Shown here in pieces: positions 3,998 through 64,000 of a stretch of DNA of 64,000 nucleotides. Positions within the stretch are counted from its first letter, which is position 1; each line of letters begins with the position of its first letter. The translations under genes were made by a program, and so were the position numbers. A model generated the notes under the pieces. That model saw nothing but the letters and a program-made list of their open reading frames with translations. It searched no databases and was not told where the DNA came from. Source of the stretch: Anaerolineae bacterium (GTDB lineage: Bacteria > Chloroflexota > Anaerolineae > Promineifilales > Promineifilaceae); NCBI GenBank assembly GCA_023954475.1, contig JAMLHW010000005.1:62001-126000 (forward strand). The letters are read 5' to 3'.

Positions 3998-5797
3998 TTA
4001 CAGCGTCAGTGACCGCTCATCAATCAAGCTTGCGGCATAAGCCACAAAGTCAGCAACAGATTGCACGCCGCGATTCTCGTTGTCCCGCGTGCGCAGCGCC
4101 ACCGCGCCCGCTTCCACCTCATTGTCACCAACAACCAGTTGGAACGGAACCTTCTGCAATTGGTGATTGCGAATCTTCTTGTTCATGCGCTCATTGCCGT
4201 CGTCCACTTCCACGCGCAAGCCGGCCGCCTTCAACTGTGCCGCAACTTCTTGCGCAAACGGCACATGCCGATCCGCAATTGGAATCAACACAGCCTGCAC
4301 CGGAGATAACCACACGGGAAATGCGCCGTTGAAATGCTCGATCAAAATGCCGACAAAGCGCTCCATGCTGCCAAACGGCGCGCGGTGGATCATCACCGGC
4401 CGATGCGGCTCGCCATCTGCACCGACATATTCCAGACCAAACCGCTCCGGCAGCAGGAAATCAACCTGCACCGTGCCCAATTGCCATTCACGCTTGAGCA
4501 CATCGCGGAAGATAAAATCGAGCTTCGGCCCATAAAACGCCGCTTCGCCCTCTTCAACCACATAGTTGAGACCCAGCTTATCGGCCGCTTGCCTGATTGC
4601 CGCAATGCCGCGCGCCCACATTTGCGGCGCTCCGGCATATTTGTCGCTGGCGGGATCATTTGTGCCCAGCCGCGCGCGGAAATCGTTGAAGCCCATCGTG
4701 TTGAACACGTACTGAATTAACTCGACGACGTGGATGAACTCTTCCTCAAGTTGGTCAGGCGAGACGAATAAATGTGAATCATCGACCGTGAAGCCGCGCA
4801 CGCGCGTCAAGCCATTTAGCTCACCGCTCTTTTCGTAGCGATACACCGTACCGAACTCGGCCAGACGCACCGGCAAATCGCGGTAACTGCGCGGTTTGCT
4901 GCGGTAAATCTCGATGTGATGCGGGCAGTTCATCGGTTTGAGCATGAATTCCTCGTCATCAACCTCAATCGGCGTGTATTGGCTATCCTTGTAATATGGA
5001 TAGTGTCCGCTCGTTTTGTACAGTTCCAGATTGCCGATATGCGGCGTGATCACGGGCTGGTAGCCGCGCTCCATTTGCGCTGTGCGCAGAAAATTCTCCA
5101 GCGTTTCGCGCAAGATCGCGCCTTTCGGTAGCCAGAGCGGCAACCCGGAGCCGACCAGCGGCGACAGATGGAACAGTTCCAACTGCTTGCCGAGACGGCG
5201 ATGATCGCGCATTTTCGCTTCTTCGAGCAAATGTAGATAGTCATCCAGTTCGGCTTTGTTGTGCCACGCGGTGCCGTAGATGCGCTGCAATTGTTCGCGG
5301 TTTTCATCGCCGCGCCAATAGGCGCCGCCGCTGCGCAGCAGTTTGACCGCGTTGGCCTTGACTTGCTTGGTATAGCCGACATGCGGCCCGCGACACAGAT
5401 CGACAAATTCGCGCTGCGTGTAAATACTCACTTCCTCGACGCCTTCATTTTTGACGAGATCCTCAATTAACTCGATCTTGTAAGGTGCATCGGCGAAAAA
5501 GACAAGCGCTTCGTCGACTGTCATGGATGAATGCTCAAATCTGGCGTTTTGTTTGAGCAACTGCTTCATCCGCACTTCAATTTTTTCCAAATCTTCTTCG
5601 GAAAACGTGATGAGTTTGCCGTTTTCGTCTGCGCCGAGATCGAAGTCGTAATAAAAGCCGTCTTCAATCGGTGGGCCGATGGCGAGTTTGGCTTCGGGAT
5701 AGAATTCAAGCACCGTTTCGGCCATGACATGGGCGGCCGAATGCCGGATGCGGTACAGGTCTGATTGTTCGTATGGTACGCCGTTATTGTCTGACAT
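3998..5797 (-). CDS. thrS: Threonyl-tRNA synthetase (intact, TGS-less)
   Basis: Charges tRNA-Thr with threonine in the cytoplasm. It has 599 residues against about 640 in typical ThrRS; the difference is the missing N-terminal TGS domain. Order of parts: editing domain with HSAAH (about residues 18-22) and DLCRGPHVGYT, then the class II core with MNCPHH (zinc Cys), motif 2 YRYEKSGELNGLTRVRGFT, DDSHLF (zinc His), motif 3 HRAPFGSMERFVGILIEH, and the C-terminal anticodon-binding domain (VLIPIADRH...VEVDDGNERMNKKIRNHQ). All three zinc ligands and the editing motifs are present. The ATG follows GAGGAACC, a good ribosome site. It is preceded by a T-box and followed closely by the 76-aa gene. It is likely the sole functional ThrRS now that the neighbour is interrupted. 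Confidence 0.97.
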   Translation of the reverse strand: MSDNNGVPYEQSDLYRIRHSAAHVMAETVLEFYPEAKLAIGPPIEDGFYYDFDLGADENGKLITFSEEDLEKIEVRMKQLLKQNARFEHSSMTVDEALVFFADAPYKIELIEDLVKNEGVEEVSIYTQREFVDLCRGPHVGYTKQVKANAVKLLRSGGAYWRGDENREQLQRIYGTAWHNKAELDDYLHLLEEAKMRDHRRLGKQLELFHLSPLVGSGLPLWLPKGAILRETLENFLRTAQMERGYQPVITPHIGNLELYKTSGHYPYYKDSQYTPIEVDDEEFMLKPMNCPHHIEIYRSKPRSYRDLPVRLAEFGTVYRYEKSGELNGLTRVRGFTVDDSHLFVSPDQLEEEFIHVVELIQYVFNTMGFNDFRARLGTNDPASDKYAGAPQMWARGIAAIRQAADKLGLNYVVEEGEAAFYGPKLDFIFRDVLKREWQLGTVQVDFLLPERFGLEYVGADGEPHRPVMIHRAPFGSMERFVGILIEHFNGAFPVWLSPVQAVLIPIADRHVPFAQEVAAQLKAAGLRVEVDDGNERMNKKIRNHQLQKVPFQLVVGDNEVEAGAVALRTRDNENRGVQSVADFVAYAASLIDERSLTL

Positions 5798-5808
5798 GGT
5801 TCCTCTTT

Positions 5809-5885
5809 CAAGCTGTCAGCTTTTAGCTATTAGCTGTCAGCTTATTTTATTTTGCTGAAAGCTGTGTGCTGAAGACTGTCAGCTC
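5809..5885. repeat. Intergenic AGCTGTCAGCT-type repeat
   Basis: Successive imperfect units such as AGCTGTCAGCTTTTAGCT and GCTGAAAGCTGTGTGCTGA lie between the thrS2 ribosome site and the T-box terminator. Same family as 3484-3560, 15526-15550 and 47526-47548. Confidence 0.55.
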
Positions 5886-5892
5886 ATTCAAT

Positions 5893-5929
5893 AAAAAAAC
5901 GCCATCACCCATGTCGGGGCGATGACGTT
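5893..5929 (-). terminator. T-box intrinsic terminator
   Basis: Minus-strand stem AACGTCATCGCCC with GGGTGATGGCGTT (13 bp including two G-T pairs), loop CGACAT, followed by seven T. It lies directly downstream of the T-box core and upstream of the thrS2 ribosome site. Confidence 0.9.
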
Positions 5930-6167
5930 TGCATGCGTTCGCGGTTCCACCCAACTTCGGCCGAAAGCGGTTAGCTTTTAGCCCTCATTGTTCGGCCGAT
6001 AACGGAGCCTGCCGGGCTTTCATAGTTGCTTGTGCGTTCCGAAAGCCACTCGTGGGGGGTTTTTGCCGTCGTCGTCGCTGTCGTGATTCTCAGCCGTTGA
6101 TCACAACTCTCTGCTGCTTGAGCGACGGGTACTCGTCCCACTCAACGTGTTGCCACCTATATTTGTA
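5893..6167 (-). promoter_or_regulatory. T-box riboswitch of thrS2
   Basis: Read on the minus strand, the leader runs about 275 nt from the predicted transcription start to the terminator. It contains the diagnostic T-box sequence GGGTGGAACCGCG (forward 5940-5952), an exact match to GGGTGGNACCRCG. The terminator follows at 5893-5929. The UGGA inside would pair with the UCCA end of uncharged tRNA-Thr, stabilising the antiterminator so that ThrRS is made when threonyl-tRNA is scarce. A helix GTTGTGAT/ATCACGAC lies within a CGTCGCT/AGCGACG helix in the 5' part and may belong to stem I. I cannot place the threonine specifier codon with confidence. Two TCGGCCGA palindromes lie inside the leader. 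Confidence 0.88.
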
Positions 6168-6173
6168 CGGATC

Positions 6174-6201
6174 ATTATAAACCAGCCGTCTGTGTTGTCA
6201 A
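6174..6201 (-). promoter_or_regulatory. Promoter of the thrS2 T-box transcript
   Basis: Minus-strand TTGACA (6196-6201) and TATAAT (6174-6179) are both exact sigma-70 consensus hexamers with a 16-bp spacer. The expected start is near 6167. Confidence 0.85.
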
Positions 6202-6223
6202 GCCGGATCGCCGTGCCTATAAT
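6195..6223 (+). promoter_or_regulatory. Promoter of the LCP gene, -35 overlapping the thrS2 -35
   Basis: Plus-strand TTGTCA (6195-6200) and TATAAT (6218-6223) with a 17-bp spacer. Its -35 hexamer uses five of the same base pairs as the thrS2 -35 on the other strand, so the two promoters are back to back. The expected start near 6230 gives a leader of about 75 nt. Confidence 0.78.
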
Positions 6224-6303
6224 GCGGCGTTGCTCACAATCGGGCAATTGAAATTTCAAAGTTGGCAACTTTGGCGAAAGTTGACAACTCTATTTGTACC
6301 ATT

Positions 6304-7740
6304 ATGTCGTCACCAGAAACTCAAACTGAGCGCAAAATGCCGTTGTGGGCCAAAATGCTGATTGCCGGTCTGTTATTGGGTCTGTTTGCCGGCAGCGTGG
6401 TCTGGGTCTACTCACAGGCGCATGGATTGGCGTCAAATATCGAGATTACTGCACCGCAGTTTAACGGCGTCGTGACGGATGTTTCGGCCGAATCTGCTGC
6501 CAACCGATCCCCAGATACACTACTGCCCACACCGACACCGCAATCCGGCCTGCTTTCACCGTCCGGGCTGCAGCCGTGGCAGGGCAGCGAACGCGTCACC
6601 ATTTTGCTCATGGGCAATGACCGACGCTGCGAAGAAGAAGGGCCGACACGCAGCGACAGCTTGATGGTCGTTTCGTTGGATCCGTTGGGCAAAACCGCCA
6701 GCGCCGTTTCCCTGCCGCGCGACAGTTGGGTACAGATTCCCGGCTTTGACGTCAACCGCATCAACATGGCCCACTACGACGGCGAGGCTTACGAATACCC
6801 CGGTGGTGGCCCCGCTCTGGCCCAACGTGCGGCCGAAGCATTCCTCGGCATTCCCATCGACTATTATCTGGCGATCAATTTCGACGCCTTCGTGCAGATA
6901 GTCGACATCATCGGCGGCATCGATATTCAGATTCCCGAGACGATCAACGATCCCAACTACCCCGACGATTGCTACGGCTATGCCGGTTTTCACGTCGAAG
7001 CAGGCTGGTACGAAGGTTTTGACGGGCAGGCGACGCTCAAATATGCCCGCACCCGCGCCACCGAAGGCGGCGATGTCGACCGTGCGGCGCGTCAACAAGC
7101 GGTGCTGCTTGCCGTCCGCGACAAGGTGCTGCGTCTCAATATGCTGCCGCAACTGATCCGCCGGGCGCCGCAATTGTGGCAGGCTTTGCAGGACAACGTG
7201 ACGACCAATCTCACGGATACACAGTTGATTCAACTGGCGTTGTTGGCGCAAGAAATACCGACGGAAAATATCGAAACGGCCGTCCTCGACTTCAACTACA
7301 TGTACAACGAAGTCACGCCGGATGGACGCCAGGTACTCGTTCCCAATCGGGAGGCGATACGACAACTGCGCCGGATATTGTTCCCACCAGCCGCACAACC
7401 GTTGCCGGAAATCGGGGATTTACTGGAATTGATGCAGGCCGAAGGTGCTCGCGTGGCTGTTTACAACGGTACGGCAACGTTTGGCCTGGCAAGTTCAACG
7501 CAAGCATGGCTGATCGAACGGGGAGTAGATGTGGTTGAAATCGGCAACGCCGTTTCGGCCGAAACGCCCACCACCACCATCGTCGACCACGGCAACCATC
7601 CCTACACGCGCCAATACCTCGTGCAGCAAATGGAATTATCGCCGCTCAATGCCAGACAGAGCACCCAGCCGCCAATCGGCGATTTTGACATCCTCATCAC
7701 GCTCGGCACTGATTGGGAAACCGTTCTGCCGGTCGAGTAA
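6304..7740 (+). CDS. LytR-CpsA-Psr (LCP) family cell-wall protein
   Basis: LCP proteins attach polymers to peptidoglycan or other cell-surface acceptors, acting outside the membrane on lipid-linked substrates. A single transmembrane helix lies near residues 14-34 (MLIAGLLLGLFAGSVVWVY), followed by a P/T-rich stalk. The LCP domain starts near VTILLMGNDRR, with SDSLMVVSLDP and VSLPRDSWVQIPG holding the conserved Asp/Arg residues, then DYYLAINFDAFVQIVDIIGGIDI and LKYARTRATEGGDVDRAARQQ. A C-terminal LytR_C domain follows (RVAVYNGTATFGLASSTQAWL). ATG at 6304 gives a short basic N-terminus before the helix; 6262 is an alternative in-frame start. It is divergently transcribed from thrS2. Confidence 0.9.
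   Translation: MSSPETQTERKMPLWAKMLIAGLLLGLFAGSVVWVYSQAHGLASNIEITAPQFNGVVTDVSAESAANRSPDTLLPTPTPQSGLLSPSGLQPWQGSERVTILLMGNDRRCEEEGPTRSDSLMVVSLDPLGKTASAVSLPRDSWVQIPGFDVNRINMAHYDGEAYEYPGGGPALAQRAAEAFLGIPIDYYLAINFDAFVQIVDIIGGIDIQIPETINDPNYPDDCYGYAGFHVEAGWYEGFDGQATLKYARTRATEGGDVDRAARQQAVLLAVRDKVLRLNMLPQLIRRAPQLWQALQDNVTTNLTDTQLIQLALLAQEIPTENIETAVLDFNYMYNEVTPDGRQVLVPNREAIRQLRRILFPPAAQPLPEIGDLLELMQAEGARVAVYNGTATFGLASSTQAWLIERGVDVVEIGNAVSAETPTTTIVDHGNHPYTRQYLVQQMELSPLNARQSTQPPIGDFDILITLGTDWETVLPVE
6483..6492. repeat. Representative copy of the TCGGCCGA highly iterated palindrome (~98 copies in window)
   Basis: This entry stands for a dispersed family. By eye I counted about 98 copies of TCGGCCGA, about 40 of them extended to TTCGGCCGAA; most of the others are flanked by A or T on both sides. 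Copies occur in coding DNA in all three frames (read as SAE/SAD, FGR/IGR or RPK/RPN), in spacers and inside the T-box leader. Examples: 6483, 7556, 9597, 14103, 14223, 14343, 14463, 23859, 33586, 43430, 51659, 62428. None lies in the IS at 2468-3457. Confidence 0.9.
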
Positions 7741-7895
7741 TCACCCACACGTAACAAAGCAATACGCCATCTGTCATGGAGGCTGTTCAATCGAAAAGGG
7801 ATTGAGATTCGGCCGAGATCAGCATATACTGTAAATAACGAATTGGAGTCAGCGAAACTCCTGAGTGGAGCCGATCCGGAGTAAGGCGCGTAACC

Positions 7896-8798
7896 ATGGC
7901 AGACCTGTCGCAAGCGATTTGGAGCAACGAACTTTATCGCAAGCTCATCTTGACGATCATAATTGTGCTGGGACAAAGCTTGCTCTCCCGATTGCTAATC
8001 TGGATAGCGACCAACAAAATCCCCGAAGACAGTCCTCACATCTATACCATTCGCAAAGCGATTAGTTATTCGGTCACCATTCTGGCAGCACTGCTGATCT
8101 TCGGCATCTGGGTCGAAGGATTGAGCGATTTGTCGGTCGCGCTGGGCATCCTCGCGGCCGGGCTGGCATTTGCGCTGCAGGAAGTCATCGGCAGCTTTGC
8201 CGGGTGGCTCACCATCATCAGCGGACGCCCGTTTTCTGTCGGGGATCGCATCGAAACCAGCGACATTCGCGGCGATGTCGTCGATGTCAGCATTTTGCGT
8301 ACAACCTTGATGGAGATCGGCAACTGGCTGCAAGGCGATCACAATACGGGACGCATCGTCACCGTATCCAACGCCTTCATCTTCAAAGAACCGCTTTACA
8401 ACTATTCAGCCTATCTCCGCTTCATCTGGGACGAAATCTCTGTGCCGGTCACGTATGAATCCGATTGGCAGCAAGCGATTGTGATCATGTTGGAAACAGT
8501 GCGATCACATCCGAGCTTTCAGGATTTGCAGCCGCAAGCCGATGAGCAGCGACGATTGGCACGGCGCAAGCTGGCGGTGAAGATCACGTCACTGGAGCCG
8601 CGCGTATTTGTCAAACTGACCGACAACTGGATTGAATTGGGCATGGTTTATCCGGTAGATAATGATTTGCGGCGCACATTCCGCAGCGAGATCAGTCAAC
8701 AGATTTTGTCCCAATTCGCCGCAGCCAACATCACCATTGCATCGCAGACGGTGGCTATTACGCGTTTTCCGACCAACAAGGGGTTAACGGACGCGTAA
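7896..8798 (+). CDS. MscS-type mechanosensitive ion channel
   Basis: A small-conductance mechanosensitive channel that releases solutes on osmotic downshock. It has 300 residues. Two predicted N-terminal helices (about 12-32 and 50-68) are followed by the pore-lining TM3, rich in Gly/Ala (SVALGILAAGLAFALQEVIG), then GRPFSVGDRIE and the beta domain. The usual MscS TM3 signature and the VGDRI motif are both present. The C-terminal cytoplasmic part contains a charged insertion around residues 210-225. No gene within 90 bp on either side suggests a partner. The spacer 7741-7895 holds one TCGGCCGA copy. Confidence 0.9.
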   Translation: MADLSQAIWSNELYRKLILTIIIVLGQSLLSRLLIWIATNKIPEDSPHIYTIRKAISYSVTILAALLIFGIWVEGLSDLSVALGILAAGLAFALQEVIGSFAGWLTIISGRPFSVGDRIETSDIRGDVVDVSILRTTLMEIGNWLQGDHNTGRIVTVSNAFIFKEPLYNYSAYLRFIWDEISVPVTYESDWQQAIVIMLETVRSHPSFQDLQPQADEQRRLARRKLAVKITSLEPRVFVKLTDNWIELGMVYPVDNDLRRTFRSEISQQILSQFAAANITIASQTVAITRFPTNKGLTDA

Positions 8799-56921: not shown

Positions 56922-57422
56922 ATGAGCATAACATCTGAAGCATACCGCGACGCCTTGCGTCATTTTCCGGCAGGCGTCACCATCGTCACCATTCTTGCCG
57001 ACGGTGAGCGCCACGGCCTTACTGTCTCCGCATTCGCATCGGTTTCGCCAACGCCACCGTTGATCATGGTCGCCATCGACCATCGCCATCGCGCCCATGA
57101 TATTTTGCAGAAGCCGGGTGCAACGTTCGCCGTCAACATTTTGCACGCCGAGCAGGCCGAGCTTTCTAATCGATTTGCCTGGGTAAAAGACGAAGATCGT
57201 TTTGCTGAAGGAAACTGGACTGCGGCCCAAACCGGCGCGCCGGTTCTCGCCGATGCGCTAGCATGGCTCGATTGCATCATCTACGCACAATACGAAGCCG
57301 GCACACACACTATTTTCATTGGCGAAGTGCAAGCCAGCAGCACGCCGCGCCATGATGAGCCGCCATTGATTTATTGGAATCGTTCATATCGTAAACTGAA
57401 TCACAGCACACCCGCTGTTTGA
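56922..57422 (+). CDS. Flavin reductase (HpaC-like) domain protein
   Basis: The 166-residue protein reads YRDALRHFPAGVTIVTILAD, then GLTVSAFASVSPTPPLIMVAI and FAVNILHAEQAELSNRFA, with CIIYAQYEAGTHTIFIGEV and LIYWNRSYRKL at the end. This is the split-barrel FMN-binding fold of flavin reductases that supply reduced flavin to monooxygenases. No oxygenase gene is adjacent. It starts 5 bp after the metalloenzyme stop and is likely co-transcribed. Confidence 0.9.
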   Translation: MSITSEAYRDALRHFPAGVTIVTILADGERHGLTVSAFASVSPTPPLIMVAIDHRHRAHDILQKPGATFAVNILHAEQAELSNRFAWVKDEDRFAEGNWTAAQTGAPVLADALAWLDCIIYAQYEAGTHTIFIGEVQASSTPRHDEPPLIYWNRSYRKLNHSTPAV

Positions 57423-58943: not shown

Positions 58944-58974
58944 AAAACCCCCACCATTGACAAGGGGGTTTTTT
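58944..58974 (+). terminator. Rho-independent terminator after the helicase gene
   Basis: AAAACCCCC pairs with GGGGGTTTT around an 11-nt loop and runs into TTTTTT. Located 50 bp after the helicase stop. Confidence 0.8.
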
Positions 58975-59215: not shown

Positions 59216-59770
59216 ATGACACAAAAAAGCAAAAAAACGAAACGACATAATCGCACCAAAATCAATTTCGCGCTGGATATTGTTCTGGCATTGATATTTG
59301 TCTTTGGTATGGAAGTGTATTTTACCGGCATACCGCTGCATGAATTGCTGGGTTTGTTCTTTGCAGTGGGATTGATCGTCCACCTACTTTTGCACTGGGA
59401 TTGGATCGTCGCTTTGACGCGTACGTTCTTCAAGAAGCTGCTGCACCAATCCCGTGTGAACTACGTACTCAATGCAGCGCTGCTGATCGTGGTTGTCGCC
59501 ATGACGCTGTCTGGGATTGTGATTTCGCAGACGCTGGGATTGTCACTACCTATGGCCGACAGCACCTATCTCACTTGGTCGACGGTGCACGCGCTGTCTG
59601 CCCAACTGGTGCTGGTCCTGGTAGCGCTGCACATCGCCATGCACTGGCGCTGGATAGTGACCAATTCGAAGAAGTATCTGTTCATCAGGCCCAATACGAG
59701 ACAACAACAGGTATCGTCAAAGCAGACACCATTTGGTCGTCGTGCTATCAGGGAGCAGGCTCATGAATAA
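59216..59770 (+). CDS. DUF4405 domain b-type membrane protein
   Basis: The 184-residue protein has a basic start (KSKKTKRHNRTK) and four hydrophobic helices. Paired histidines sit where a heme-binding four-helix bundle would need them: LHELLGLFFAVGLIVHLLLHWDW and VHALSAQLVLVLVALHIAMHWRW (in parts VGLIVHLLLHWDW, LVALHIAMHWRW). This is the DUF4405 pattern, related to cytochrome b/ferric reductase-like subunits. It is first of four overlapping genes with the flavin proteins. ATG 59216 follows GAGGTG; earlier frames are not needed. Probably carries electrons across the membrane to the FMN-binding lipoprotein. Confidence 0.82.
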   Translation: MTQKSKKTKRHNRTKINFALDIVLALIFVFGMEVYFTGIPLHELLGLFFAVGLIVHLLLHWDWIVALTRTFFKKLLHQSRVNYVLNAALLIVVVAMTLSGIVISQTLGLSLPMADSTYLTWSTVHALSAQLVLVLVALHIAMHWRWIVTNSKKYLFIRPNTRQQQVSSKQTPFGRRAIREQAHE

Positions 59771-60095
59771 TCGGCCGATAAGACTCACTGATGCCCTTTT
59801 CTTTCTTCTCTTCTGCGCTGTACTCATCGCAATTGGGATAATGCTGATGAACAGTGGCTATACCGAGAATCCTTTCACAAGCATGCTGGCAATTCTCGAT
59901 GTCCATCAAGCATTGCAGGCTTCGCCGGAGCTGGCTATTCCCACCGCAACTGAAAACGGCGTCAACTATTTCTCGGAAATCTATCTGGCATCATTTCCAG
60001 ACGTACTTTATGACATCTGGCTATTTTTTGTCGCAACTGCTGTAATCATCCTGATCAGTCGGCCGATTCGGTGGCTGGTCCAACGCTTTAGCTAA
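59763..60095 (+). CDS. Small two-helix membrane protein of the flavin operon
   Basis: I do not recognise a named family in this 110-residue protein. Helix 1 is about residues 10-30 (LFFLLFCAVLIAIGIMLM) and helix 2 about 82-100 (LWLFFVATAVIILI-like, given as IWLFFVATAVIILI). The loop of about 50 residues between them would face outside. It overlaps the stop of the DUF4405 gene by 8 bp, so it is translationally coupled and likely a subunit of the same complex. Confidence 0.7.
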   Translation: MNNRPIRLTDALFFLLFCAVLIAIGIMLMNSGYTENPFTSMLAILDVHQALQASPELAIPTATENGVNYFSEIYLASFPDVLYDIWLFFVATAVIILISRPIRWLVQRFS

Positions 60096-60130
60096 TTGCA
60101 ACGAAACACGCAACAAGGAGTTGATGAATC

Positions 60131-60781
60131 ATGACTATTCCCAAACAACTACGAACCAAAACCTCACGCCGCAAAGCGCAAGCTGTCGGCATGACGGCAC
60201 TTTTCGCTGCCACAACAATGGCAGGCTGCACCGTAAGCAATACCGTCACTGCACCCGACATGCCGGTGCTTGTTCCGACAACCGTGGCTGAGTCTGCGGC
60301 TGTGGTCAATACCGCAGTGCCTCAAATCGTGTTGCCAACCGCAACATCTCAGGTCGCTGTAGCGACGCAGGAAAGCGAAACCGTAGCAAATCCAACAGCA
60401 ACAGCAACGAGCTTGCCAACTGCAACACCGATACCGACTGCGACACCCATACCACCGACTGCGACACCTGTGACCAACGGCCTTTATACCGACGGTTATT
60501 ATCTCGGAGATTCGATTCGCACCGATCGCTGGGGCTACACACAGGTCGGTGTCCTGATTGAAGCCGGCAAGCTGGCCGATGTCGAGATCGTTGCTTATCC
60601 GACATCGACACATCGTTCCGCGCAGATCAGTTTGTCTGCATTTCCCAGGCTCATCTCCGAAGCGATCTCCAACCAAAGCGCCGATATCGACGCCGTGACA
60701 CGGGCAACTGATACCAGCGTGGCGTTTATTCGTTCGCTTGACACAGCTTTGGACGATGCGCAGGTTGGCAACGGATCATGA
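60131..60781 (+). CDS. FMN-binding domain lipoprotein
   Basis: The 216-residue protein begins with a basic leader and hydrophobic stretch ending in the lipobox TMAGC (Cys about 33), so it is an exported lipoprotein. A P/T/A-rich linker follows to about 116, then the FMN-binding domain (GLYTDGYYLGDSIRTDRWGY...VGVLIEAGKLADVEIV...DAVTRATDTSVAFIRSLDTAL). The site for covalent FMN is D-x2-[ST]-G-A-[ST]-x-[ST] in this family. Here it reads DAVTRATDTS, with Arg at the Gly position. It is followed by apbE, which overlaps its stop, making flavinylation likely all the same. Confidence 0.88.
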   Translation: MTIPKQLRTKTSRRKAQAVGMTALFAATTMAGCTVSNTVTAPDMPVLVPTTVAESAAVVNTAVPQIVLPTATSQVAVATQESETVANPTATATSLPTATPIPTATPIPPTATPVTNGLYTDGYYLGDSIRTDRWGYTQVGVLIEAGKLADVEIVAYPTSTHRSAQISLSAFPRLISEAISNQSADIDAVTRATDTSVAFIRSLDTALDDAQVGNGS

Positions 60782-61545
60782 AACAGACCCGATTTCACAT
60801 GGGTATGCCTATTACGGTTGAAGTTGTCGATGCCGAATTTTCGGCCGATGACTTCAACCTCATCTTCAACTATTTTGCATCCGTCGATGCACGCTACAGC
60901 CCGTTCAAAGACAGCAGTCTGGTCGGTCGCATCAACAGCGGTCAACTACATCCAAAAGATGCCGGAGAGGAAATGCAAACCATCTTGTTGCTGGCAGAAT
61001 TGACCCGGCAGCAGACAAACGGCTACTTCAACATCTATCAAGATGGACATTTCAACCCGTCAGGCATCGTCAAAGGGTGGGCCATTCAGCAGGCCGCCAA
61101 CATGCTTAGAGAGCGCGGCATGCAAAACTACTACGTCGATGCCGGTGGCGATATGGCCGTCCGTGGCACCAATTGGTGGGGGCAACCGTGGCGCATCGGC
61201 ATCCGCAACCCATTCGACACGACACAAATCATCAAAACAGTCGCCCTGACAGACGGGGGCATTGCGACATCAGGTCTTTATCAGCGCGGCAAACACATTT
61301 ACAACCCGCACGATCATACTGACGCATTTGACCACATCGCCAGTGTAACAGTCATCGGCCCTACCGTTCTCGATGCCGATCGCTTCGCGACTGCCGCTTT
61401 CGCCATGGGCACAGACGGCATCTATTTCCTCGAAGAACTGGCAGGCATAGAGGGTTACGCCGTCGATCATAATGGTCTGGCAACGATGACCAGGCAGTTT
61501 CCTCAATTTGTTGCCGTCACCGACCGTATTGCTGTGTGTGGCTGA
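60778..61545 (+). CDS. apbE: FAD:protein FMN transferase
   Basis: The 255-residue enzyme attaches FMN covalently to Ser/Thr of exported flavoproteins. Conserved parts are FHMGMPITVEVVDAEF, DARYSPFKDSSLVGRINSG, GIVKGWAIQQAANML, VDAGGDMAVRGTN and GIATSGLYQRGKHIYNPH. There is no signal peptide, so it would act in the cytoplasm unless a lipoprotein signal was lost. ATG overlaps the stop of the FMN-binding lipoprotein gene (ATGA), its evident substrate. Last gene of the operon. Confidence 0.93.
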   Translation: MKQTRFHMGMPITVEVVDAEFSADDFNLIFNYFASVDARYSPFKDSSLVGRINSGQLHPKDAGEEMQTILLLAELTRQQTNGYFNIYQDGHFNPSGIVKGWAIQQAANMLRERGMQNYYVDAGGDMAVRGTNWWGQPWRIGIRNPFDTTQIIKTVALTDGGIATSGLYQRGKHIYNPHDHTDAFDHIASVTVIGPTVLDADRFATAAFAMGTDGIYFLEELAGIEGYAVDHNGLATMTRQFPQFVAVTDRIAVCG

Positions 61546-62006: not shown

Positions 62007-62720
62007 ATGGCAGAAAGATTGTTTGAACCAGACCAACAGCTCATCACCAAAGCACGATCGGTTTTTGCGAAATTGGAGCAATTGTATTGGGTCATTGGAG
62101 GTGCTGCCTCCGGTAAATCGACAATTTGCGCAGCGCTGGCGGCGCGGTTCGATGTCGAATTGATCGACATGGATGCGCGGACGTACGGCTCCTTTTTCGG
62201 CCGATATGATCCCGTCCGTCATCCAGCAAGTACCGCATGGCTTTCGGCCGATAATCCGCTTGCCTTCTTGCTCAACATGACGTGGGCACAATTCGACAGC
62301 TACAACCGCACCGCGCAAACCGAATGCCTTGACCTGCTCGCTGACGAGTTGGCTGAATTGCCAACAAATCGACCATTACTCGTCGATGGCGGAATTACGC
62401 ATCCGTCGCTGTTGGTGCAATCCCTTTCGGCCGAAAAGATCGTCTGTCTCAGTGCCTCCAATGCTTTACGCATTCACGAATGGGAAACAGCCGAGAATCG
62501 TGCCGAAATGCGAAACTGGGTAACAAGCTTACCTAATGGGGATGCGATGTGGCAGAAGTTTCTGCAATTTGACCGTTTGATGACTGCAACAATGCTCCGC
62601 GAAAGTCATACAACGGGAATTGTTGTGTTTGAACGCAATGCTGCCACATCGGTAGATACCGTTTCGCATTCCGTCGCAACCCATTTCGGCCTGACACAAA
62701 CAGGCGGAGCACCAAAATGA
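62007..62720 (+). CDS. P-loop NTPase/kinase-like protein
   Basis: The 237-residue protein has a Walker A motif VIGGAASGKSTICAAL at about 30-45, VELIDMDARTYGSFFGRYD with an acidic strand end, and LLVDGGITHP as a possible Walker B region. It resembles small nucleotide or uridine kinase-like P-loop enzymes, but the substrate is not evident. ATG 62007 is chosen as the natural N-terminus; the frame opens 63 nt earlier. It overlaps the next GNAT gene by 4 bp. Three TCGGCCGA copies lie inside. Confidence 0.75.
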   Translation: MAERLFEPDQQLITKARSVFAKLEQLYWVIGGAASGKSTICAALAARFDVELIDMDARTYGSFFGRYDPVRHPASTAWLSADNPLAFLLNMTWAQFDSYNRTAQTECLDLLADELAELPTNRPLLVDGGITHPSLLVQSLSAEKIVCLSASNALRIHEWETAENRAEMRNWVTSLPNGDAMWQKFLQFDRLMTATMLRESHTTGIVVFERNAATSVDTVSHSVATHFGLTQTGGAPK

Positions 62721-63694
62721 CCCAGTACACCAGCCGCCGCTTGACACCGACCGATGCTGACTTTCAAACCCTTTCTGATGTCGAGCAGCTATTCGATCCG
62801 GACGATTTCGGTTCGGCCGAATCACAGCGCGAAGAGTACGAAGCATTCGACCATTCCTATCTCTACGAGGAATATTTCATCGAGCAAGACGGGCGTCCTG
62901 TCGCCTCCTTTCGCTTTCATGAAACGCCATCGATGCATGTGCCGGGCAAGGTTCGTATCTGGTTGATGACTGCCAAAGAAGCTTCGGCCGAATTGTGCGA
63001 GTTTCTCGTCACCGAACTAGAAAAAAAGATAGCTGAGCATCCGATCAATCGCGCAGTCGGCCCTGTCAACGAAGAATACACAGCCTTGATGGCCGCACTC
63101 GAACGGCACGGTTTCCGCAGTGTATTGTTTCAGGTCGCATCCAAACTCGATGTCACGACGTTTGATTCGTCCATCTACGCGCCCTTACTAAATAAACTGG
63201 CAGAAGAGAACATCCAGATCAAATCTTTGGACGAATTGATGAAAACTGATCCCGCCTGGGAAAGAAAACTGTACGAAATGCAATTCATCGCGCGCAGCGA
63301 CATACCGCGCAAACCGGGCGTCACCGCAACCAAAGTGCCGTTCGCAGAATGGCGCAAGCAGAGGCAGCGCAGCGATTTCAAACCGACATTGTGGATGGTC
63401 GCCGTCACTGACAACGGTGACTATGTGGGAACGGGCAATTTCTGGGTTCGCGATCCCGAGCATAGACTGGCCGACAATGGTTTCCTGGGCATTTTGCGTC
63501 CTTATCGACGGCGTGGCATTGCGCGGGCGCTCAAAGTTACCCTCATCAAACAGGCACAGCGTGAAAGGATACAGAGCGTTTATACGTCCAATGAACAGAA
63601 CAATCCGATGTTGCAGCTCAATCTCCAGTTGGGTTTTGTGCCGCAGCCCGGTTGGCACCAGATGGACAAGCGTTTCGATCACTCGGGGGTTTGA
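62717..63694 (+). CDS. GNAT family N-acetyltransferase (two-domain)
   Basis: The 325-residue protein has two GNAT-like halves. The second half carries the acetyl-CoA motif NGFLGILRPYRRRGIARALKV at about 255-275, with R-x2-G-x-A nearly standard. The N-terminal half (RRLTPTDADFQTLSDVEQLF, PVASFRFHETPSMHVPGKVRIW) is a degenerate GNAT copy. ATG overlaps the stop of the NTPase gene. Acceptor unknown. A paralogue follows directly, so the pair arose by tandem duplication. Confidence 0.85.
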   Translation: MTQYTSRRLTPTDADFQTLSDVEQLFDPDDFGSAESQREEYEAFDHSYLYEEYFIEQDGRPVASFRFHETPSMHVPGKVRIWLMTAKEASAELCEFLVTELEKKIAEHPINRAVGPVNEEYTALMAALERHGFRSVLFQVASKLDVTTFDSSIYAPLLNKLAEENIQIKSLDELMKTDPAWERKLYEMQFIARSDIPRKPGVTATKVPFAEWRKQRQRSDFKPTLWMVAVTDNGDYVGTGNFWVRDPEHRLADNGFLGILRPYRRRGIARALKVTLIKQAQRERIQSVYTSNEQNNPMLQLNLQLGFVPQPGWHQMDKRFDHSGV

Positions 63695-63731
63695 CGTGTC
63701 AAACCCGTACAAATGGATATTTGGAGACAGT

Positions 63732-64000
63732 ATGGCTGACTATGCCTTGCGCAAAATGGCGTTAATCGATGCCGATTTCCAGACGCTTTCAGATATTGAG
63801 CGGATGATGGCTCCTGAAGAATATGGTTCGGCCGAATCGTGGCGCGACTATTATGCTGACTACAATCCGAATCTGATCAACGAGACGTGGATCATCGAAG
63901 ATGGTGATCAACCTGTCGCATCGTTCCAATTTCACGAGACGCCTGCCGCCCGTGTTGCAGGCAAAGTACGCATGTGGCTGATGGTGCCGGAAGATGTTTC
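63732..64000 (+). CDS. GNAT paralogue, N-terminal part (3' end outside window)
   Basis: The visible 89 residues read LRKMALIDADFQTLSDIERM, EEYGSAESWRDYYADYN and PVASFQFHETPAARVAGKVRMWLM, clearly homologous to the start of the preceding gene. ATG at 63732 follows GGAG. The second domain lies beyond the window. Gap of 37 bp between the two paralogues. Confidence 0.85.
   Translation, partial: MADYALRKMALIDADFQTLSDIERMMAPEEYGSAESWRDYYADYNPNLINETWIIEDGDQPVASFQFHETPAARVAGKVRMWLMVPEDV

Follow-up and report, generated by a model that had tools for sequence, protein, structure and literature searches.

The window, that is, the whole stretch of 64,000 nucleotides that was analysed, carries a cassette of four genes on the + strand, on contig C22 of a host genome of 5.12 Mb that is 98% complete and belongs to an uncultured Chloroflexota bacterium. 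Gene 1 (CYT, 59216..59770) codes for a putative DUF4405 b-type cytochrome of 184 amino acids, gene 2 (TM2, 59763..60095) for a two-helix membrane protein of 110 amino acids, gene 3 (FMN, 60131..60781) for an exported FMN_bind lipoprotein of 216 amino acids and gene 4 (ApbE, 60778..61545) for an FAD:protein FMN transferase of 255 amino acids. It had been predicted that the four genes overlap. All four are present, and genes 1 and 2 overlap by 8 bp and genes 3 and 4 by 4 bp (ATGA), but genes 2 and 3 do not overlap because a gap of 35 bp separates them; a ribosome-binding-like sequence, AAGGAG (60115..60120, + strand), is read ahead of gene 3. The view that these genes form a compact transmembrane flavin electron-transfer operon is borne out by the gene families and by their order, which is the same in 11 other loci. 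Upstream of the cassette, a terminator-like sequence lies at 58948-58966, 3' of a helicase gene; the scan lists it on the - strand, and a T-run also follows the stem on the + strand. A flavin reductase gene at 56922-57422 was considered as a member of the system and was rejected because the helicase gene and the terminator-like sequence intervene and because no such neighbour is prominent among the gene families of the related loci. On the other side of the cassette, at 62717-64000, there is a tandem pair of similar GNAT-type proteins, one at 62717-63694 and one that starts at about 63740 and runs off the window.

Gene 1 matches PF14358 with 36.7 bits against a cut-off of 26.7 and has, by hydropathy, about four transmembrane (TM) helices. 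Two H-x13-H pairs, H42/H56 and H125/H139, lie on two of the helices, and H42, H56, H60, H77, H125, H139 and H143 are invariant in 9 orthologues. The H-x13-H spacing is that of classical bis-His di-haem b cytochromes. The PF14358 match and the four central histidines are those of the flavinylation-associated DUF4405 cytochromes, and we infer from these residues that gene 1 codes for a di-haem b cytochrome. Binding of haem b has been shown for a DUF4405 protein of another organism, and the family occurs in apbE clusters (PMC11334425). The published DUF4405 models have six TM helices (PMC11334425), whereas gene 1 does not hold six in one chain; two more are in gene 2 (hydropathy).

TM2, the product of gene 2, has two predicted TM helices (hydrophobic segments) and an outer loop. 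Since gene 1 has about four helices and gene 2 has two, compared to the published six, TM2 might supply the helix pair that is missing from the six-TM DUF4405 fold. The original prediction that this subunit is of an unfamiliar family was correct, as no match to TM2 was found in Pfam, NCBIfam, the PDB or a fold search. Membership in a known family was rejected on these grounds and because the AlphaFold2 model is poor (pLDDT 65) and has no fold matches. In most TM2 orthologues the loop between the helices is longer and holds a conserved segment of about 50 residues (MTLExLTAELAAAGVDVExVSAxM...ENLLAVVNSGRVTVAELAARL), which is absent from the TM2 of the window and from its nearest relative. A weak second TM2 match in the same genome (C23) is an Ala/Glu-rich lipoprotein and was discarded as a compositional match.

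Gene 3 matches PF04205 (FMN_bind) with 23.6 bits, above the cut-off of 22. It begins with a signal sequence that ends in TTMAG directly before Cys33, continues with a Pro/Thr-rich linker and has its FMN_bind domain at about residues 117-210. The AlphaFold2 model of this domain (mean pLDDT 77) has the FMN_bind fold, its best match in the PDB being 8p2a, the flavinylated domain 2 of SaFMN3, with a TM-score of 0.86 (target-normalised). The flavinylation motif (60689..60709, + strand, D187 to T193) lies in the sequence D187-A-V-T190-R191-A-T193-D-T-S, that is, DxxTRAT. When it is set against the canonical motif, Dxx[S/T]GA[S/T] (PMC12052999), the Asp, Thr, Ala and Thr fit and the Gly is replaced by Arg191. 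That an Arg stands in the place of the Gly had been noted from the sequence of this locus, and it is confirmed by the same Arg in 11 further loci. The explanation that the Arg is a sequencing error or marks a degenerate site was rejected because the same residue is found in 12 loci, in several assemblies and with silent variation of the codon.

The structure of SaFMN3 domain 2 (SaFMN3-D2) bears on what the Arg might do. In that domain the flavin is contacted by Tyr14 and Ile45, which stack on it, and bound by Ser42 and Thr74, and Gly70 contacts the FMN phosphate through its backbone amide (PMC10339131). The aromatic stack, Ser42, Ile45, Thr72 and Thr74 correspond to W134, S163, I166, T193 and T195 of gene 3, and Thr193, the predicted attachment residue, directly precedes the last helix like Thr72 in 8p2a. 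The FMN contacts are therefore conserved, or replaced aromatic for aromatic, with the exception of Gly70, which is Arg191 in gene 3. Because these contacts are kept and because the Gly contact that is replaced uses no side chain, flavinylation is favoured, and it is likely, judging from these residues, that FMN is attached to gene 3 despite Arg191. No biochemistry on a substrate with an Arg motif was found in the literature, as far as it was searched.

When a collection of 84,980 species genomes was scanned with the ApbE pair, 80 loci were found; outside Chloroflexota the scan covered Patescibacteria and Alphaproteobacteria for this ApbE subfamily only. An FMN_bind gene was recognised in 77 of the 80 loci, nearly always directly upstream of apbE, and the motif is [S/T]RAT in 10 of these 77 genes and of the Gly type ([S/T/G]GAT) in the other 67. 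One more Arg locus, L154, which has DUF4405 and TM2, came from a profile search in 396 genomes of the class, together with many Gly loci that have neither. The 10 loci from the scan, L154 and the window make up the 12 Arg-type loci that are considered here, and the close relatives of the cassette are from Anaerolineae, Chloroflexota. An orthologue of TM2 is present in 12/12 Arg-type loci and DUF4405 in 11/11 whose contigs reach that far; in L041 the contig is cut before the position of DUF4405, which is found in 9/9 of the remaining Arg loci of the scan. By contrast, neither TM2 nor DUF4405 was found in any of the 67 loci whose recognised FMN gene is of the Gly type, so that TM2 was found only with the Arg-type cassette. 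When 400 Chloroflexota genomes were searched with a TM2 profile, the sole carrier was the genome of the window, which was also the only carrier of an Arg-type cassette seen among those 400. Of the 80 loci, 65 have a gene for about 510 amino acids downstream of apbE, and none of the Arg-type loci has it; in the one member that was tested, the product joins an NqrB/RnfD domain to an NAD-binding domain, and nearly all of the 67 Gly-type loci carry this fusion. Both types can occur in one genome, as in ACE_CHL12, which has an Arg-type (L039) and a Gly-type (L056) cassette. The check that had been proposed, namely, whether the Arg variant accompanies ApbE in other genomes, was run, and in the related loci the variant is always beside apbE.

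The scan also gave several observations on loci other than the Arg-type cassettes. Cassettes of the form FMN_bind-ApbE-(NqrB/RnfD-NAD) are frequent in Patescibacteria (L047, L058, L069 and many more), and in L050 and L054 two FMN_bind genes flank apbE. Members of the same ApbE subfamily from Alphaproteobacteria (L072, L078, L086-L088, L095, L106 and L112) are nested in the tree beside the ApbEs of Patescibacteria (Adlerbacteria), which looks like transfer between the phyla, and several of the alphaproteobacterial copies have the same conserved gene surroundings, an ABC transporter among them. In one genome (G015; L033, 11766-13723) the Arg-type cassette is followed downstream by what were judged by eye to be a VTC-like domain protein, a DUF4956-like membrane protein and a lipoprotein.

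The Arg codon varies silently between CGG and CGC across the Arg-type loci, and pairwise dN/dS is 0.08-0.28 (NG86) for the pairs where it could be estimated, the method being saturated for the most distant pairs. The same gene order and the same Arg in 11 other loci, this silent codon variation and a dN/dS well below 1 together put the cassette beyond chance. Outside this group the Arg is rare. A survey of PF04205 in 400 Chloroflexota genomes found Gly in 106 motif windows, and beyond the clade of Arg-type cassettes the Arg was convincing in just three more proteins, all with SRATYSS and all of one further family (L190, L213, L231). These adjoin an apbE of a different clade, and with the profiles used no DUF4405 or TM2 was matched beside them. 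An Arg at the Gly site of the motif is, by this survey, rare, and it arose at least twice, both times beside apbE. In loci L257, L258 and L259, from a Chloroflexota family other than that of the cassette, the independent SRATYSS motif stands in an FMN_bind protein beside a different apbE, and a Gly-type FMN_bind protein is encoded elsewhere in those genomes.

These results bear on whether the Arg motif is dead, in which case the domain would bind FMN non-covalently or fail to bind it, and the ApbE would serve another protein. Such a view could draw on the prevalence of Gly at this site, which was seen in almost every match that the Chloroflexota survey gave and in 67 of the 77 FMN genes that adjoin an apbE of this subfamily, and on the Klebsiella fumarate reductase, in which a change from Gly to Ala in the motif is alone enough to cut flavinylation to about half (PMC12052999). 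But gene 3 retains Asp187, Thr190, Ala192, Thr193 and the remaining FMN contacts, and the Arg never changes while its codon varies silently. The FMN gene and apbE share 4 bp, and in the related loci, too, apbE directly follows the FMN gene. Moreover, there is no Pfam-detectable FMN_bind protein in the host genome besides gene 3, and a second lineage has gained SRAT beside another apbE. A dead or non-covalent site is for these reasons improbable. The original prediction had allowed that the Arg might abolish attachment; this is not supported because the Arg is under purifying selection in 12 loci, and it is further disfavoured by the second origin of SRAT beside apbE and by the backbone-amide role of the Gly. 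The cassette with the Arg motif appears to be a genuine and functional variant of a type of system that is already known.

A tree of 106 ApbEs groups the 12 Arg-type proteins in a single clade (SH-aLRT 99), which is nested in the NQR/RNF-like ApbE subfamily, and the Arg-type FMN domains likewise make up a single clade, also when the motif columns are removed (support 99). The simplest reading of these trees is one event, in which an ApbE/FMN_bind pair would have swapped both its membrane partner and its motif: an NQR/RNF-like pair would have left the NqrB/RnfD-NAD fusion for a DUF4405/TM2 cytochrome, and the change from Gly to Arg and matching changes in the flavin site would have occurred on the same branch. 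Because there is a single origin, the correlation alone cannot show that motif and partner swap are functionally linked. It could be that the Arg is neutral, tolerated by a promiscuous ApbE, without a function and without a link to DUF4405/TM2. The one origin in the clade, the rise of SRAT elsewhere without a detected DUF4405 and the fact that the known Gly contact is through the backbone only are all consistent with this. However, no reversion and no other residue is seen at this site in the 12 loci, although their FMN domains go down to about 50% identity with that of the window. In addition, five other positions are fixed in the same clade: R133, W134, E144, D185 (or E) and D194 are, like R191, fixed in the Arg-type FMN domains and rare or absent in the Gly-type ones, where W134 is found in 6/52 and D194 in 8/52. 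A neutral Arg is a possibility to be taken seriously, although we do not favour it.

Gene 4 matches PF02424 with 134.5 bits, and S165, H173, D201 and T205 are conserved according to PDB alignments and a conserved-residue check, as in the ApbE family; the putative counterparts of the Ser, His and Asp in the V. cholerae enzyme, Ser241, His257 and Asp285, were assigned by way of other PDB ApbEs. The gene starts MKQTRFHMGMPITVE, within the last four bases of the FMN gene, which leaves no room for a signal peptide, and hydropathy revealed no signal peptide and no hydrophobic or TM segment. Gene 4 therefore does not have the signal peptide or lipid anchor of the characterised extracytosolic ApbEs. 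This is general among its relatives, since a simple hydropathy screen of the upstream and N-terminal regions found a possible export signal in 4 of 80 ApbEs, whereas a hydrophobic segment is evident at the N-terminus of 61 of the 77 substrates and, in weaker form, of most of the others. The ApbE may itself be exported in some other way, or it may act on the preprotein while this is still in the cytosol. In the second case there would be no need for an FAD exporter such as the one that has been described in Listeria (PMC9973259).

It had also been suggested that the Arg might define a variant ApbE specificity. This is possible since the Arg-type ApbEs are one clade with conserved residues of their own, P42, F43, V49 and F92 being invariant in it and mostly T, Y, I and L/Y/I elsewhere. 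The idea can be carried further: the Arg-type cassette would be a distinct class of ApbE and substrate, in which Arg191 and the neighbours that changed with it remodel the FMN phosphate site, the cognate ApbE has a matching specificity that is linked to a DUF4405/TM2 cytochrome, and flavinylation takes place in the cytosol before export, without an FAD exporter. We consider this stronger version doubtful.

As for the source of the electrons, the host genome has menB and two complex I NADHdh genes and no match to PF03116 (NqrB/RnfD) anywhere, and the cassette has no NAD module. These findings count for the following proposal. We propose, with a probability of about two in three, that the cassette draws electrons from the quinone pool of the membrane and delivers them to an extracytosolic, covalently bound FMN, and that it arose by the swap of partners that brought DUF4405, TM2 and ApbE together. 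Menaquinol would reduce two stacked b-haems that are held in DUF4405 between the two His-bearing helices, TM2 would serve as an accessory subunit, either by completing the cytochrome or by docking the flavoprotein, and ApbE would attach FMN to Thr193 despite Arg191. From the haems the electrons would go to this FMN, and the flavolipoprotein would hand them to an external acceptor, for which an envelope reductase, a multihaem cytochrome and an iron/metal species are candidates. Counted against this proposal are the about four TM helices of gene 1 instead of six, the ApbE without an export signal beside an exported substrate, and the lack of a conserved acceptor gene adjoining the cassette, as well as the co-occurrence being from one origin and the second SRAT lineage having no DUF4405/TM2 match.

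The same components could run inward, the flavoprotein oxidising an external donor and the cytochrome passing the electrons to the quinone pool. The direction cannot be read from the sequence, and a cassette with no NAD(P)H module is compatible with such a flow. But the ApbE-flavoprotein membrane systems that have been reviewed are mostly modelled from a cytosolic donor to an extracytosolic acceptor, with reversal allowed in principle (PMC8238504), and no gene for a donor oxidoreductase is conserved near the cassette. We give inward flow little weight.

The host genome has one other apbE besides gene 4 (G000:C4:143409-144224; locus L253, about 4679-8252), which codes for 304 amino acids without an obvious signal peptide. 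Its neighbours, assigned to families by eye, are a ferric-reductase/MsrQ-like membrane protein, a CxxCH haem protein, small exported proteins and a two-component system, and this cluster has no Pfam-detectable FMN_bind substrate. At G000:C12:241000-248000 (locus L254) there is a cluster of multihaem c-type cytochromes with a second DUF4405/b561-like membrane protein of 277 amino acids, which suggests that the host has other extracytosolic electron carriers.

The Gly of the motif has been treated as consensus for ApbE substrates, and strict searches for [S/T]GA[S/T] would miss the Arg-type proteins. The cassette is in this respect a small natural test of what ApbE needs, of a change of the donor to a flavoprotein and of ApbE action before export. 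It would also extend DUF4405-type electron transfer to Chloroflexota, with TM2 as a candidate accessory subunit.

Several known systems resemble the cassette in part. MsrQ-like and PepSY-like systems (PMC8238504, PMC11334425) likewise have a membrane haem protein with FMN_bind and ApbE; the membrane protein is of another family, and many of them have a fused NAD-binding domain, which the cassette does not have. SaFMN3 domain 2 (PDB 8p2a, PMC10339131) shares with gene 3 the FMN_bind fold and the FMN contacts and differs from it in that Gly70 is Arg191, the stacking Tyr is Trp and Tyr73 is Asp194. The NQR/RNF-like systems (Meheust et al. 2021, PMC8238504), which have been published from Actinobacteria and CPR, have a homologous ApbE and FMN_bind pair, whose two genes are neighbours and follow each other as in the cassette; the Gly-type loci show this arrangement too. 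Unlike the cassette, with its DUF4405, TM2 and [S/T]RAT, the loci of this kind that were found here have the NqrB/RnfD-NAD fusion and [S/T/G]GAT; the cassette has no NqrB/RnfD membrane domain fused to an NAD-binding domain. Closest are the DUF4405/apbE clusters (Huang et al. 2024, PMC11334425), in which a DUF4405 membrane protein with conserved His is found beside apbE and a substrate. Those clusters have been reported from Proteobacteria and Firmicutes and often include Flavodoxin_4 as well as a flavin transporter, and their DUF4405 has six TM helices, whereas the cassette is from Chloroflexota and has an FMN_bind lipoprotein with the Arg motif and a DUF4405 protein of about four TM helices with a separate two-TM subunit. 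The cassette is a well-supported variant of the DUF4405/ApbE systems, ordinary in principle and not categorically new.
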